From: an uncultured Burkholderiales bacterium
Lineage (GTDB): Bacteria > Pseudomonadota > Gammaproteobacteria > Burkholderiales > Burkholderiaceae_C
Reading direction: 5' to 3'
Length of the DNA: 10,577 nucleotides
NCBI GenBank assembly: GCA_937897495.1
Contig: CALCBL010000075.1
Span: 1 to 10,577 of the forward strand
Part shown: in pieces, positions 4,145-10,302 of the stretch
Layout: every line of letters starts with the position of its first letter
How positions within the stretch are numbered: the first letter of the stretch is position 1
Position numbers and translations under genes: made by a program
The notes under the pieces: model-generated
Databases searched by the model: none
The model's input: the letters and a program-made list of their open reading frames with translations, nothing else
What the model was told of the DNA's origin: nothing

Positions 4145-5407
<1,263 letters not shown>

Positions 5408-5425
5408 GGATTTACCTGCGTAAAG

Positions 5426-5441
5426 CAACCCTTGTGGGTTG
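5426..5441 (-). promoter_or_regulatory. Hairpin just upstream of the rho ribosome binding site
   Basis: CAACCC and GGGTTG form a perfect 6-bp stem around an ACAA loop on the minus strand. It ends about 10 bases before the rho Shine-Dalgarno region. It lacks a downstream U-tract and so is not an intrinsic terminator. It could modulate translation or mRNA stability. The role is inferred. Confidence 0.45.
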
Positions 5442-5592
5442 ATGTCAAAAAAATCAGGGGGAGGAAGGAGACCGAAATTTCAAACGTCTAGAAACCAAAG
5501 CTGGGAAGATGCGTCAAAGGGAGCAAGTAGACGCTATGGGCTTTTGTCAATTTCTATCTTGAAACTGTGCTGAAACCCTTTGGGGACTCAAC
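5442..5592 (-). promoter_or_regulatory. rho: Long C/U-rich rho leader, candidate Rho autoregulation region
   Basis: From the predicted start near 5593 to the hairpin at 5441 the transcript is about 150 nucleotides with no convincing leader ORF. Its 3' half is pyrimidine-rich, with runs such as CTTCCTCCCCC and seven U's at about 5447-5453. C exceeds G, 11 to 4, in the 30-base stretch from GGTCTCC to GAC. C-rich, G-poor, unstructured RNA is what Rho binds. In E. coli, rho is autoregulated by termination in its leader. Extending this to the present gene is inference. Confidence 0.45.
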
Positions 5593-6097: not shown

Positions 6098-6126
6098 TTG
6101 ACAGAAACGAGCCAAGTTGCTCATTC
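6098..6126 (+). promoter_or_regulatory. Candidate promoter of the flavoprotein gene
   Basis: A perfect -35 hexamer TTGACA lies at 6098-6103. The base window 17 bp downstream reads TCATTC (6121-6126), a poor -10 match. The predicted start near 6133 precedes the ATG at 6155. The perfect -35 box is the only strong part. It also coincides with the TTG that would be the start of the longest reading frame. Confidence 0.35.
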
Positions 6127-6154
6127 ATTACTTGATCCAAATCATTTTCACTGC

Positions 6155-7495
6155 ATGGACGTCACTTCATCTCACGCTTCAAAGCCCTTGGACCTGTCCG
6201 TGGCGGTCATTGGGGGCGGGCCTGCAGGCCTCATGGCGGCTCAGGTTTTGTCGAGTTTGGGCCATTCTGTGCATCTGTTTGACGCCATGCCTTCAGTGGG
6301 TCGAAAGTTTTTGTTGGCAGGGCGAGGGGGGCTGAACCTCACGCACTCAGAGGCGTTCAATCAATTTGTAAATCGCTATGACGCCCATGCGGCTCAACTG
6401 AAACCCCTGCTGAGTGATTGGGGCTCAGATCAATTGAGGGCTTGGGCTCAGGATTTGGGAGTTGAAACATTCATTGGAAGCTCAGGACGTATTTTCCCCA
6501 AAGAAATGAAAGCAGCCCCCTTGCTGCGAGCGTGGTTACATCGTTTGCGCCATCCTCTAACAGGCAAGCCCGTTGAATTTCACATGCGCCATCGATTAAC
6601 AGGTTTGCAAGCAATACCCGCTGACACAGCCAAAGGCAAATGCACTGAATTAAGTTTCGAAGTGCGGCATCTCTCGTCGCCTGAGCTTGAGTTGCGCAAA
6701 GTCAATGCTCAAGCTGTGGTCTTGGCGCTTGGCGGGGGAAGTTGGGCCCGGCTAGGCTCTGACGGTGCTTGGGCACCTTGGTTAACTGAAGTGGGCGTGC
6801 CCGTGAACGCCCTGCTGCCTTCCAATTGCGGTTTTCATGTGGCCGGCAGAGAAGGGCAGGGTTGGACGCCGTTTTTCTTGGCGCGTTTTGCGGGTCAGCC
6901 TCTCAAGTCAGTCGCCATGGAGTGGGTCCATGCCCAAGGGCATGTCATCAGGCGCCAGGGAGAATTTGTGGCCAGCACCTACGGGGTGGAAGGCAGTTTG
7001 ATTTATGCCGCGTCATCAGATTTACGCAAGGCCATTCAAGCGCAAGGGCTGGCTGAATTCAAATTGGATTTATTGCCCGATTGGACCTTGGAAAAAGTCA
7101 TCCATGAGGTTTCACATCCTCGGGGCTCGCGCAGTTTGTCTTCACACCTCAAGGGACGACTTGGCATTGAGGGCGTCAAGATGGCCCTGTTGAACGAATT
7201 GTTGTTGCCTCAGATTTTGCAAGATCCAGCGCAACTGGCCTTGGCCATCAAAGGCTTGGTCGTGGTGCTCACAAAGCCCAGGCCCATCGATGAAGCCATC
7301 AGCAGCGCAGGCGGCGTGACGTGGGAGGGCCTTGATGCAGGGTTGCAAACCAAGGCATTGCCGGGGGTATTTTGTGCGGGGGAAATGTTGGATTGGGAAG
7401 CGCCCACAGGTGGCTACTTGCTGACGGCCTGCATGGCCACAGGGGTGAAAGCTGCTAAGAGCTTGCACGCAAACATGAAAGGTGACGAGCCTTGA
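6155..7495 (+). CDS. HI0933/BaiN-family NAD(P)/FAD-dependent oxidoreductase (TIGR03862-like flavoprotein)
   Basis: The protein has 446 residues from the ATG at 6155. A Rossmann FAD-binding motif, VAVIGGGPAGLMAA, lies at residues 16-29. It is followed by VGRKFLLAGRGGLNLTHSE (about 48-66), the signature loop of the HI0933 flavoproteins in its GLNLTH variant. The C-terminal FAD-binding part, GVFCAGEMLDWEAPTGGYLLTAC, is typical of the family. Relatives reduce unsaturated or aromatic substrates or have unknown roles, and the substrate cannot be told here. The frame continues upstream to a TTG at 6098, but those 19 residues are not family-like. No Shine-Dalgarno sequence precedes 6155, so the start is somewhat uncertain. 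The gene is divergent from trxA. Its last codons overlap the opposing ffs RNA gene. Confidence 0.9.
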   Translation: MDVTSSHASKPLDLSVAVIGGGPAGLMAAQVLSSLGHSVHLFDAMPSVGRKFLLAGRGGLNLTHSEAFNQFVNRYDAHAAQLKPLLSDWGSDQLRAWAQDLGVETFIGSSGRIFPKEMKAAPLLRAWLHRLRHPLTGKPVEFHMRHRLTGLQAIPADTAKGKCTELSFEVRHLSSPELELRKVNAQAVVLALGGGSWARLGSDGAWAPWLTEVGVPVNALLPSNCGFHVAGREGQGWTPFFLARFAGQPLKSVAMEWVHAQGHVIRRQGEFVASTYGVEGSLIYAASSDLRKAIQAQGLAEFKLDLLPDWTLEKVIHEVSHPRGSRSLSSHLKGRLGIEGVKMALLNELLLPQILQDPAQLALAIKGLVVVLTKPRPIDEAISSAGGVTWEGLDAGLQTKALPGVFCAGEMLDWEAPTGGYLLTACMATGVKAAKSLHANMKGDEP

Positions 7496-7577
7496 CCCCG
7501 GCACTGACTCTGCAGTTAGAGCTGCTTGGTTCCCCACCTGACTCGGTTGGCCGCTTTACCATGCGGGAAGGCCCGTC
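7484..7577 (-). ncRNA. ffs: 4.5S RNA, signal recognition particle RNA (small bacterial type)
   Basis: On the minus strand the SRP domain is clear at 7521-7542. GUCAGG and AGCAGC form the Ffh-binding internal loop, and UGG/CCA closes a GGAA tetraloop. E. coli has UCC/GGA at the same closing stem, so the helix is conserved by compensating changes. The two ends pair over 10 bp: GACGGGCCUU (from 7577) with AAGGCUCGUC (ending 7484), including one G-U pair. Inside it, CCCG pairs with CGGG. The length of about 94 nucleotides fits the family. The RNA binds Ffh and targets membrane proteins to FtsY and the translocon. It is divergent from dnaX and overlaps the 3' end of the flavoprotein gene by about 12 bases. 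The exact ends are uncertain by a few bases. No U-tract terminator was seen. Confidence 0.9.
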
Positions 7578-7584
7578 GAGGGCT

Positions 7585-7613
7585 ATTGTAAGACACCGAT
7601 AGAATCCACACAT
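7585..7613 (-). promoter_or_regulatory. Promoter of ffs (-10 box clear, -35 weak)
   Basis: TACAAT on the minus strand (7585-7590) matches the -10 consensus at 5 of 6 positions. It lies 7 bases before the first paired base of the 4.5S RNA, exactly where a start site is expected. The hexamer 17 bp upstream (ATGTGT, 7608-7613) is a poor -35 and overlaps the dnaX start codon. Confidence 0.55.
7600..7605 (+). promoter_or_regulatory. -10 box of a probable leaderless dnaX promoter
   Basis: TAGAAT matches 5 of 6 positions of the -10 consensus and ends 6 bases before the dnaX ATG, so transcription would start at or next to the start codon. No Shine-Dalgarno sequence precedes the ATG. No good -35 is present at 17 bp. 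The element interlocks with the divergent ffs promoter. Confidence 0.5.
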
Positions 7614-9348
7614 GTCTTATCTCGTTCTGGCACGCAAATACCGTCCTCGTAACTTCACTGAAATGGTGGGGCAGGAGCACGTTGTGCAAGCCCTGACCAA
7701 TGCCCTTGTGCAACAAAGGTTGCACCATGCCTATTTGTTCACCGGCACCAGGGGCGTGGGCAAGACAACGGTGTCTCGCATTTTGGCCAAATCACTCAAT
7801 TGCCAAGGCACTGACGGACTGGGCGGTATTACTGCTGAGCCTTGTGGTGTTTGCCAAGCCTGCAAGGACATTGATTCAGGTCGATTTGTCGATTACACGG
7901 AGCTTGATGCTGCCTCCAATCGGGGTGTGGACGAAGTTCAAAGCTTGCTTGAACAGGCGGTTTACAAACCGGTTCAGGGGCGCTTCAAGGTGTTCATGAT
8001 TGACGAGGTTCACATGTTGACCAACACGGCCTTCAACGCCATGTTGAAAACGCTTGAAGAGCCGCCTGAGTATTTGAAGTTTGTATTGGCCACCACCGAT
8101 CCCCAAAAAGTTCCTGTCACTGTTTTGTCTCGGTGCTTGCAATTTAACTTGCGACCCATGGCGCCAGAAACAGTGTTTGAGCACCTCACAAAGGTTTTGG
8201 CACAAGAGAACTTGCCCGCTGAGCCCATGGCACTGCAGTTGTTGGCCCGAGCCGCCAGAGGGTCCATGCGCGATGCACTGAGCCTGGCCGATCAAGCCAT
8301 TGCATTTGGCAGCGGTCAATTGCAAGAAGCCACGGTTCGTTTGATGTTGGGCAGTGTCGATCGCAGCCATGTCATAGGCCTTATTGATGCCCTTGCTAGG
8401 GGCGATGGTGCCTCTGTGGTTGCAATTTCTGAAGGCCTGCGACTGAATGGTTTGTCTGCTGCTTCTGCCTTGGAAGACATGTCCATGGTGTTGCAGCGCA
8501 TGGCCGTGTTGCAAGCAGTCCCCAGCGCTGCCGCTGAATCAGACGACCCGGATCACCAAGAAATGTTGCGTTTGTCAGAGGCCATGCCCGCCGATGAAAC
8601 GCAGTTGCTCTACAGCTTGTGTTTGCACGGCCGCACAGAATTGGGCTTGGCGCCCGATGAGTATGCGGCGCTGACCATGGTTTTGCTGCGGCTACTGGCT
8701 TTCAAGCCAAAAGCTCATCAAGCTCAAGAAGTTCAACAGGTGCAGGCGCCTGCGGCTCAAAAAAAAACTTTAGCGACAGCGCCACCTAGTGCAGCGGCCG
8801 CGCAGCCGGCTACTTCTTCGCCCAAGCCCCTTGCCGTTGACAAGCCTGCAGTCGAGTTGCCTGTGTCAGAAGCCCGCATGGCACCTATTCAAGTTAAAAA
8901 TTTGCCTGTCCGCCAAGCCAGTGAACCGACTGAAAGAACAGCACCGAAAGTGTTGGTCGTCACAGAGGAGGGCCATTTTTGGACTCAAACAGTTCGTCAA
9001 TTGGTAGCTTCTGAAGCTGTATCGGCCTTGGTGCGTGAGTTGGCCTTGCAATCGCAATTGATTGCACGCGATACCGATCAATGGCATTTGAGAATTGACA
9101 GCGAATCCTTAAATCAAGGCACTGCGCGCGAGCGTTTACAAGCCGCATTGAACAGCGCAGGGTATGCCGTCAAGCTGGTGGTTGAAATTGGCAAAGTGAC
9201 CGATTCACCTGCACAGCGCAATGCCGCTGATTTGGCTGAAAAGCAAAAAGCGGCTGAAGATTTGATTCATTCAGATCCCATGGTGCAAGCCATGGTTGAA
9301 AATTTTGGGGCCAAAATCGTGCCCGGCACAATCAAGCTTATTTCTTAA
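7612..9348 (+). CDS. dnaX: DNA polymerase III subunits gamma and tau
   Basis: The full-length product has 578 residues, [15 protein letters not shown] being the conserved N-terminus. The clamp-loader AAA+ core shows Walker A GTRGVGKT (45-52), zinc-module cysteines C64, C78, C81 and C84, Walker B MIDEVH (129-134), the SRC motif (173-175) and sensor 2 [12 protein letters not shown] (217-228). Domain III ends near residue 370. A proline/alanine/glutamine-rich linker follows, then a tau-specific C-terminal domain from about residue 450 that by homology contacts the polymerase and helicase. The protein loads the beta sliding clamp and organises the replisome. A run of nine A's at codons 383-386 probably allows a short gamma form (separate entry). 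The ATG at 7612 is certain from homology but lacks a Shine-Dalgarno sequence. First gene of the dnaX-ybaB-recR cluster. Confidence 0.97.
8742..8753 (+). repeat. Perfect 12-bp palindrome upstream of the dnaX A-run
   Basis: GCAGGCGCCTGC is a perfect inverted repeat ending 5 bases before the nine-A run. In RNA it can form a GCAG/CTGC stem with a GCGC loop. A hairpin this close behind a slippery tract could influence slippage. It may also be chance in an Ala/Pro-coding stretch. Confidence 0.4.
8759..8789 (+). other. dnaX: Probable programmed slippage/frameshift site in dnaX giving gamma
   Basis: Nine consecutive A's (8759-8767) sit in codons CAA AAA AAA ACT for Q383, K384, K385 and T386, just after the clamp-loader core. 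They include an A AAA AAA heptamer in the right phase for -1 ribosomal slippage. The -1 frame (or one added A) reads seven codons (NFSDSAT) and stops at TAG 8787-8789. The +1 frame (or one lost A) reads one Leu codon and stops at TAG 8771-8773. Either path gives a protein of about 386-392 residues that keeps domains I-III and lacks the tau domains. Known precedents are E. coli dnaX (ribosomal -1 frameshift) and Thermus dnaX (transcriptional slippage on A9). A hairpin at 8793-8811 is present but farther downstream than usual. Confidence 0.7.
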
Positions 9349-9355
9349 ATCTCAC

Positions 9356-9361
9356 GGAAGG
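9356..9361 (+). promoter_or_regulatory. Shine-Dalgarno site deciding the ybaB start
   Basis: GGAAGG lies 6 bases before the ATG at 9368 in the 19-bp gap after dnaX. It selects 9368 over the in-frame ATG at 9296 that lies inside dnaX. Confidence 0.8.
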
Positions 9362-9367
9362 AAAAAC

Positions 9368-9691
9368 ATGTTCAACAAAGGTCAACTCGCTGGCTTGATG
9401 AAGCAAGCGCAAGCCATGCAAGACAATTTGAAGAAAGCCCAAGACGAATTGGCTTTTGTCGAAGTGGAAGGCTCGTCTGGCAGTGGCATGGTCAAAGTTG
9501 TGATGACCTGTAAACATGCTGTCAAGCGTGTCACCATCGATCCCTCTTTGCTGACAGACGACAAGGACCTGTTGGAAGACTTGGTGGCCGCAGCCTTCAA
9601 TGATGCCGTCCGGCAGGCAGAGGAAGTGTCTCAACAGAAAATGGGCAAGTTGACGGCCGGTTTACCTCCCGGCATGAAGTTGCCTTTCTAA
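9368..9691 (+). CDS. YbaB/EbfC family nucleoid-associated protein
   Basis: The 107-residue protein begins [29 protein letters not shown], the long N-terminal helix typical of the family. [30 protein letters not shown] forms the central beta sheet, and a C-terminal amphipathic segment ends PPGMKLPF, the usual tail. Members form tweezer-like dimers that bind DNA with low specificity and are encoded between dnaX and recR in most bacteria, as here. The proposed role is in nucleoid organisation and possibly DNA repair linked to RecR. Family length is about 105-110 residues. It is 19 bp after dnaX and 14 bp before recR, so the three are probably one transcript. Confidence 0.95.
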
Positions 9692-9705
9692 TCTTTTCAC
9701 AAACC

Positions 9706-10302
9706 ATGCAAAAACCCAATGCCCATGCACTAGATGCGCTCATTCAAGCGCTGCGGGTTTTGCCGGGAGTCGGTGCCAAGTCTGCCTCTCGCATGGCATT
9801 TCATTTGATGCAGCACGAGCGCGGCGCTGCGCTGCATTTGGCAAAAGCCTTAGAGCACGCTTGTGACAACGTCAAGCATTGCGCCACCTGTCACACACTC
9901 ACTGAAACAGATGTTTGCAGCATGTGTGCCGACCCTGAGCGCGATCGAACTCAGCTGTGTGTGGTGGAAACGCCTGCAGACCAAGCGGCCATTGAGAGAA
10001 CTTCTACTTTCAAGGGCCTGTACTTTGTTCTTATGGGCAAGCTCAGCCCCCTAGACGGCATTGGACCGAACGACCTCGGCTTTGCCAAACTGTCAGAGCG
10101 TTGCAATGACGGGCTGGTGCAAGAAGTTATTCTGGCCACCAATTTCACGGGCGAGGGCGAGGCCACAGCGCACGTGATTGCTGAAATGTTGAAGAAGAGA
10201 GGCTTGCGCGTCACGCGTCTGGCCAGAGGCGTACCTGCTGGAAGTGAACTTGAATATGTCGATTTGGGCACCATCGCCCACGCATTGGTCGATCGTCGAT
10301 AA
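9706..10302 (+). CDS. recR: Recombination protein RecR
   Basis: The 198-residue protein shows all RecR modules. A helix-hairpin-helix lies at LPGVGAKSA (19-27). A four-cysteine zinc finger is formed by C59, C62, C71 and C74. The Toprim domain starts at LCVVETPAD (Glu88, Asp92), with [11 protein letters not shown] (111-121) and [12 protein letters not shown] (144-155), and a C-terminal [14 protein letters not shown] follows. RecR forms ring tetramers and, with RecO and RecF, helps RecA displace SSB at gaps in DNA. Length matches the family (about 200). No Shine-Dalgarno sequence precedes the ATG at 9706, so translation may be coupled to ybaB, whose stop lies 14 bp upstream. It is the last gene of the dnaX-ybaB-recR unit. 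Confidence 0.98.

Follow-up and report, generated by a model that had tools for sequence, protein, structure and literature searches.

Does dnaX of an uncultured Burkholderiales bacterium yield one protein or two, and, if two, is it RNA polymerase or the ribosome that departs from the frame? The question arises from a run of nine A's (A9) in the middle of the gene, where the original prediction had proposed that a shorter protein, gamma, is made besides full-length tau. The window considered here is the whole stretch of DNA analysed, that is, the 10,577 nucleotides of contig CALCBL010000075.1 (assembly GCA_937897495.1). We compared its dnaX locus with those of other genomes of the same genus, family, order and class, and weighed the mechanisms by which the run might generate a second product.

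Results

The dnaX Gene and Its A9 Tract

The features of the locus discussed below are as follows:

7612..9348, + strand: dnaX, a single continuous tau frame of 578 aa (open reading frame; Pfam domains)
8323..8739, + strand: gamma/tau domain III, aa 238-376 (Pfam PF12169), the final domain that gamma would retain
8742..8753, no strand assigned: upstream palindrome, present in the window and not conserved among close relatives; judged to lie outside the signal
8759..8767, + strand: A9 slippery tract, codons 383-386 (sequence; conservation in genus and family)
8771..8773, + strand: TAG stop of the +1 frame, to be reached by an A8 or A11 mRNA, with a predicted gamma of 386 or 387 aa (sequence; product lengths; conserved closeness)
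8787..8789, + strand: TAG stop of the -1 frame, to be reached by a -1 slip of the ribosome or with an A10 or A7 mRNA, with a predicted gamma of 391 or 392 aa (sequence; product lengths; conserved closeness)
8793..8811, + strand: downstream hairpin in a GC-rich segment, not conserved, the stretch being absent from loci L025 and L026; judged to lie outside the signal
8944..9318, + strand: tau domain V (alpha-binding), aa 445-569 (Pfam PF12170), which gamma would lack

The Pfam domains matched in dnaX are DNA_pol3_delta2, DNAX_ATPase_lid, DNA_pol3_gamma3 (domain III) and DNA_pol3_tau_5 (domain V). The run starts at base 2 of codon 383 and ends at base 1 of codon 386 (C-AA AAA AAA A-CT) and thus begins just past the clamp-loader part, domain III ending at aa 376. 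It holds the heptamer A_AAA_AAA in phase, followed by a further A, so that the A_AAA_AAG end is missing. After the run, the +1 frame reads CTT TAG, stopping after one codon, and the -1 frame reads AAC TTT AGC GAC AGC GCC ACC TAG, stopping after seven. On all these points, that is, phase, heptamer, place behind the clamp-loader domains and both stops, the original prediction agrees with the sequence. The computed products are 386 aa (42.0 kDa) from an A8 mRNA, 392 aa (42.6 kDa) from A10 and 387 aa from A11, against 578 aa (62.5 kDa) for tau, from which the proposed size of 386-392 residues for gamma follows.

Two genes lie 3' of dnaX on the same strand, ybaB (9368-9691) and recR (9706-10302). 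On the opposite strand, between dnaX and an upstream open reading frame (6098-7495, flavoprotein-like by eye), we found a predicted small bacterial SRP RNA (RF00169, 56.5 bits; 7481-7577, - strand), and the Rfam search over 7300-10300 gave nothing besides it. Elsewhere in the window, positions 5447-5453 hold an A7 on the + strand, which is a T7 on the strand of an open reading frame at 4145-5428 (rho-like by eye) and lies just upstream of its start.

Conservation of the Tract in Genus and Family

The exact A9 was found in the same phase in 85 of the 86 distinct same-genus genomes read, the remaining one having an N at the site. Among the 90 genomes of the genus, four (G036, G063, G067 and G076) had no usable locus. 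In the family, 250 genomes were searched, and 149 outside the genus were read, picked by their place in the hit list and for differing genera rather than at random; 93 of these carry A9, one A8 (L230), one A10 (L215) and two A_AAA_AAG (L186 and L430), 50 are without a run, and of the last two one has an N and one is cut. Counted by genus, the 126 readable family genera comprise 74 with A9, one with A8, one with A10, two with A_AAA_AAG and 48 with none, the last figure taking into account that L487 is cut ahead of the site. An N stands at the site in L081 and L222. Rows left out or doubled are L034, a truncated duplicate of L087, and L088 and L118, which are the window's own locus again. Relative to where domain III ends in the alignment, the run starts anywhere from 6 codons upstream to 34 codons downstream, which indicates that the linker moves while the run stays.

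The closest named dnaX records, among the best 80 of 527 named loci, are from Comamonadaceae, and our guess for the genus is Limnohabitans. Seventy-nine of these 80, which overlap other genomes counted here, carry A9 in the same phase; they include records of Acidovorax, Comamonas, Delftia, Hydrogenophaga, Limnohabitans, Polaromonas, Ramlibacter, Rhodoferax and Variovorax. Among the loci with A9 is that of L. parvus II-B4 (L353). The one locus of the 80 without the run comes from a Giesbergeria bin near A9 genera (L366, 1960-2340); it lacks both the tract and the Lys-Lys pair, and its alternative-frame stops are 92 and 118 codons off. Gamma made by way of A9 is therefore dispensable for some, since this locus and 48 of the 126 readable genera are without the tract.

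Two records call for separate mention. In a same-genus bin (L085, genome G032) the dnaX match falls into two pieces, one of them with an internal stop, and A9 is present, which points either to an assembly error or to a broken gene. A record titled Akkermansia muciniphila (L384) holds a Comamonadaceae-like dnaX (86% identity) and is probably a mislabelled metagenome bin.

In a tree of the DnaX N-terminal part, from which the linker was excluded, most A9 genera fall in one branch of 82 rows (SH-aLRT 92), made up of 76 A9, two without a run, two A_AAA_AAG, one A8 and one A10; one A9 genus, represented by L478, lies outside it. The tract labels require 9 changes on this tree, in which half of the forks are weak, against 45 in shuffles.

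Among the 86 genus and 149 family loci, those lacking a run of eight or nine A's were screened over the 50 codons that follow domain III for AAG-AAG pairs, which had been named as evidence against a slippery run when present at these lysine codons; none was found. Lys pairs with an AAG occur after domain III in L186, L430 and L215 (the last with A10), and all of them still form A_AAA_AAG.

Rarity of the Run and Selection at the Nucleotide Level

Runs of A9 or T9 are rare. The 2,706,258-base genome has only four, of which that of dnaX alone is an A9 lying in the coding strand of an open frame. Two of the four adjoin hairpins with no open frame above 52 aa (intergenic, terminator-like by eye). 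The fourth is a T9 in an open frame of 398 aa, on its sense side (L120, 906-914), and is the sole other A9/T9 of this genome in an open frame of such length. Runs of at least eight T's were absent from the dnaX tails of all 311 loci of the genus, family, order and class (309 distinct genomes), and runs of at least eight A's from all 171 dnaX N-terminal parts.

Parts of four codons make up the run, and the outermost of the encoded residues are variable. Across 178 A9 loci, the Lys pair is preceded by GAA in 156 and CAA in 22, and followed by Thr in 99 and Ser in 79. This variation between Glu and Gln and between Thr and Ser, with the A's unchanged, implies that positions outside the slippery heptamer are fixed as well. 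Wherever Ser follows the run it is encoded by AGY, that is, AGC or AGT (79 of 79), against 43% AGY and 57% TCN in the same genes. As to the lysines themselves, AAG makes up 223 and AAA 47 of the 270 Lys codons in the dnaX N-terminal part of 29 family loci; the genus uses AAA often (356 of 772), so that Lys codon usage is a strong argument where the family is concerned and a weak one for the genus by itself.

Out-of-Frame Stops

The alignment of relatives, suggested beforehand as a check, revealed conservation of the A-run and also of both close stops (86 genus and 149 family loci). Against a null in which the codons after the run were resampled 200 times with synonyms from the same gene, and which treats genes as independent despite their shared ancestry, both stops lie within 16 codons in all 87 genus loci (resampled mean 25, maximum 36) and in 76 of 81 family loci (mean 17.8, maximum 26). 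The genus counts of Lys codons, of stops and, below, of stimulators include L090 and L096, from the same genomes as L063 and L072; the 87 loci with both stops come from 85 distinct genomes. In family genes without a run, both stops were found at only 17 of 1250 positions just past domain III.

Each stop taken by itself shows an excess. The +1 stop falls within eight codons in 81 of 87 genus and 77 of 81 family loci (null means 60.2 and 57.9), and the -1 stop in 46 of 87 and 76 of 81 (null means 14.3 and 19.0). Of the two, it is the +1 stop that lies closer to the run in 67 of 85 distinct genus loci and 75 of 81 family loci, and the -1 stop is hardly ever immediate, lying within two codons in none of 87 and one of 81. 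Outside the family, in small samples, the excess is weaker: both stops are close in 10 of 12 order loci (null 4.6, maximum 8) and in 7 of 10 class loci (null 3.7, maximum 7). The dnaX of E. coli has its -1 stop after one codon and its +1 stop after 12, both within 16 codons.

Search for Stimulators

The fold of the 40 nt after the run was ranked among 40-nt windows of the same gene tail, a test in which the E. coli dnaX control reaches 0.98; with 60-nt windows this control ranks only 0.70. Folding z-scores against dinucleotide shuffles were tried and dropped as a test for stimulators, since the E. coli dnaX control was also near zero. By the 40-nt rank, no stable stem-loop follows the run of the window (0.64, against 0.98 in E. 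coli) and no enrichment of stem-loops was seen downstream of the run in the genus (mean 0.29; at least 0.9 in 2 of 86) or in the family (mean 0.55; at least 0.9 in 11 of 80). Upstream of the run, structure shows a slight excess, with mean ranks of 0.64 and 0.66 and at least 0.9 in 14 of 86 and 15 of 80 loci. Shine-Dalgarno-like cores precede the run in 8 of 87 genus and 5 of 81 family loci, against background shares of 0.08 and 0.11, and none is seen by eye in the 18 nt before the run of the window, whereas E. coli dnaX has one.

Two elements had been put forward as possibly related to the signal. The palindrome at 8742-8753 is indeed present in the window, but it decays within the genus and a role for it is unsupported. 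The same applies to the hairpin at 8793-8811, the segment being present but varying among relatives and missing from the two closest (L025 and L026).

Escherichia coli-Type Sites in the Family and Tracts Outside It

In the two family loci with A_AAA_AAG, L186 and L430 (genomes G187 and G118), the -1 stop comes after three and one codons and the stem-loop ranks are 0.97 and 1.0, respectively. The ranks are mixed (0.68, 0.48 and 0.96) in three class loci that have A_AAA_AAG together with a -1 stop nearby, and 13 of the 95 family loci with A8-A10 reach 0.9, so that the stem-loop is an imperfect divider of the two kinds of site. In the tree, L186 (there as L491) is surrounded by A9 genera, so that a switch from A9 to the E. 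coli design is the simplest reading in its case. The history of L430, whose branch arises close to the base, is less clear.

Outside the family, a run of 8-10 A's was found in the dnaX tail of 12 of 66 loci in other families of the order and 10 of 68 loci in other orders of the class, the loci read (66 of the 149 order genomes with hits, 68 of 142 for the class) being biased to better hits. Their spacing from domain III often differs, and they occur in two phases. A9 or A10 at differing distances and in two phases were noted in L125, L126, L137, L141, L148, L256, L261, L272 and L275 in the order, and in L154, L166, L177, L284, L286, L303 and L309 in the class. It looks as if such tracts arose repeatedly or moved. 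In L125, L126, L137, L148, L256 and L261, all outside the family, the -1 stop lies one codon past the run, whereas loci of the family usually have the +1 stop closer to the run; the preferred direction of the slip may differ between lineages.

Discussion

Programmed Slippage on A9 as the Probable Source of Gamma

It is nearly certain, judging from these comparisons, that the A9 of dnaX is under selection. We further think it probable that it serves for recoding, with programmed transcriptional slippage on this run giving rise to a predicted gamma in addition to tau. RNA polymerase would slip while transcribing the homopolymer, generating mRNAs with 8, 9, 10 or 11 A's. Those with nine A's, or with three more or fewer, would be translated into full tau, and those with other numbers would lead ribosomes to a stop one or seven codons past the run, yielding a gamma form of 386-392 residues. 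Such a gamma would retain the clamp-loader domains I-III without the alpha-binding tail. Slippage by RNA polymerase, and also the accumulation and function of gamma, are what we infer.

The length of the run is compatible with such a mechanism. It is nine, rarely eight or ten, and roughly matches the RNA-DNA hybrid of 8-9 nt inside the polymerase during transcription (PMC6260861). Against such a mechanism, the polymerase of E. coli was reported to be less prone to slip on runs of A than on runs of T, and to require longer ones in the case of A (PMC6260861).

Gamma may instead be produced by programmed -1 ribosomal frameshifting on A_AAA_AAA, or by ribosome sliding, with RNA polymerase copying the run faithfully. 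The in-phase heptamer and the closeness of the -1 stops beyond their null means are in keeping with this explanation, and so is the single kind of tRNA-Lys (UUU) seen in one complete genome of the genus, in which 30 of 39 tRNA places were opened, two of the other nine were seen as neighbours and seven, of 82-90 nt, are too long for tRNA-Lys. Because of this, the two-tRNA reason offered in the case of Thermus does not apply here and would not be general. In addition, a +1 stop happens to lie 12 codons on in E. coli dnaX too, where the shift is ribosomal; two close stops alone are therefore no proof of slippage, and this slightly lowers our confidence in slippage and slightly raises that in a ribosomal shift. 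Nevertheless, a ribosomal shift explains only the -1 stop and provides no reason for keeping a +1 stop, which is within eight codons in nearly all loci of both genus and family and is mostly the nearer of the two, the -1 stops rarely being immediate. It also leaves aside the two A's conserved beyond the heptamer, and there is no enrichment of stem-loops or Shine-Dalgarno-like cores at these loci, whereas strong stem-loops accompany A_AAA_AAG in the two family genera that carry it. Sliding of ribosomes is rated low, since in a published E. coli system little such product was obtained on A9 or A10 (PMC4363877). A purely ribosomal origin of gamma thus seems to us rather unlikely. Our reasons for preferring slippage by RNA polymerase to a -1 shift are that both stops, +1 as well as -1, have been retained and that stimulators of the E. 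coli type are absent; such slippage accounts at once for the nine A's, the missing RNA structure and the stops kept in both frames. Transcriptional slippage, the mechanism preferred from the outset in the original prediction, is consequently the likely one, although both kinds of slippage could contribute together in the cell.

The remaining explanations do without a programmed second product. If the Lys-Lys motif (A-E/Q-K-K-T/S) were kept for the sake of the protein, A9 would be a mere by-product; the motif is nearly constant in the clade at the protein level and AAA is a common Lys codon in the genus, but the invariable use of AGY for the Ser after the run, the preference for AAG in the N-terminal part of the 29 family loci and the conservation of out-of-frame stops beyond codon expectation make this very improbable. 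Homopolymers are mutable, and A8 and A10 occur once each among the 149 family genomes, as might be expected of a contingency locus at which replication slippage switches tau off (phase variation). We rejected such a locus, which we find hardly credible, because there are no A8 or A10 alleles among the 85 readable distinct genomes of the genus; besides, the A8 and A10 genes of the family keep tau open, with tails of 279 and 220 codons, and tau is essential for replication. The linker past domain III diverges fast among relatives, and one might see in the run a chance homopolymer. Its identical length and phase in 74 genera and the lack of any T run of at least eight in the 311 tails, or A run of that length in the 171 N-terminal parts, leave this explanation with a negligible probability.

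A Possible Exchange of Recoding Levels

Taking the family as a whole, we incline, with some reserve, to the view that a large clade of beta-proteobacteria (Comamonadaceae and kin, with 74 A9 genera among those read) makes gamma by transcriptional slippage on A9, and that single genera inside it have exchanged A9 for ribosomal frameshifting of the E. coli type at nearly the same place. If this is true, the level of recoding, RNA polymerase or ribosome, was swapped in evolution while the outcome of two products was kept, and the condition of two tRNA-Lys proposed for Thermus is not needed. The genera with A9, those with A_AAA_AAG and those with neither would also be natural replicates for asking what gamma is for.

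According to a review, most bacteria besides enterobacteria and Thermus keep no dnaX frameshift signature and may make no gamma (PMC3290774); the signature described here is conserved in many genera of common bacteria. Baranov et al. noted that slippage leading to truncation is hard to spot by comparison, no new coding sequence arising (PMC1088944). In the case of dnaX, run length, phase and both out-of-frame stops are kept beyond codon expectation, which sidesteps this difficulty. The kind of recoding is known, and its proposed case in these bacteria is apparently new, and widespread: we found no report of dnaX slippage in this bacterial group in the open-access literature, to which our search was confined.

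Comparison with Known Systems

The dnaX of Thermus thermophilus is expressed with transcriptional slippage on an A9 (PMC1088944; PMC5009743). As in Thermus, we found a single tau frame with nine A's on the sense strand and close stops in both other frames, and the predicted truncated product, gamma, would likewise retain the clamp-loader domains. A system of the Thermus type further calls for mRNAs of variable A number from uniform DNA, and for gamma and tau both being made at about 1:1; in the present genus the DNA is A9 in 85 of the 86 distinct genomes, the other having an N. Thermus has two tRNA-Lys, which was offered as a reason bearing on ribosomal slippage there (PMC5009743), whereas the complete genome examined from the present genus showed tRNA-Lys(UUU) only.

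Antonov et al. (2013) described dnaX genes with A7-A10 in two open reading frames, in which unshifted reading stops at gamma and tau requires a change of frame (PMC3711429). Those genes share with ours a poly-A tract in dnaX and the prediction of transcriptional slippage, but here tau is one open frame of 578 aa. Slippage in tssM of type VI secretion systems (T6SS) was demonstrated by Western blot, GFP fusions and mass spectrometry, and the poly-A tract of Yersinia tssM3, for which nine A's are named in the text on mutagenesis, gave 15-25% frameshifting (PMC4256274). That gene and its role are unrelated to dnaX; the resemblance lies in poly-A slippage in a proteobacterium leading to two lengths of one protein, as predicted for dnaX here.

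With E. coli dnaX, the locus shares the gene itself, about the same relative place of the signal and the same kind of product, predicted in our case. The four elements of the E. coli signal, that is, A_AAA_AAG, a -1 stop after one codon, a stem-loop and an internal Shine-Dalgarno sequence, are all missing from the locus, in which the +1 stop is the nearer one, and yet the E. coli design is present in two other genera of the same family (L186 and L430).
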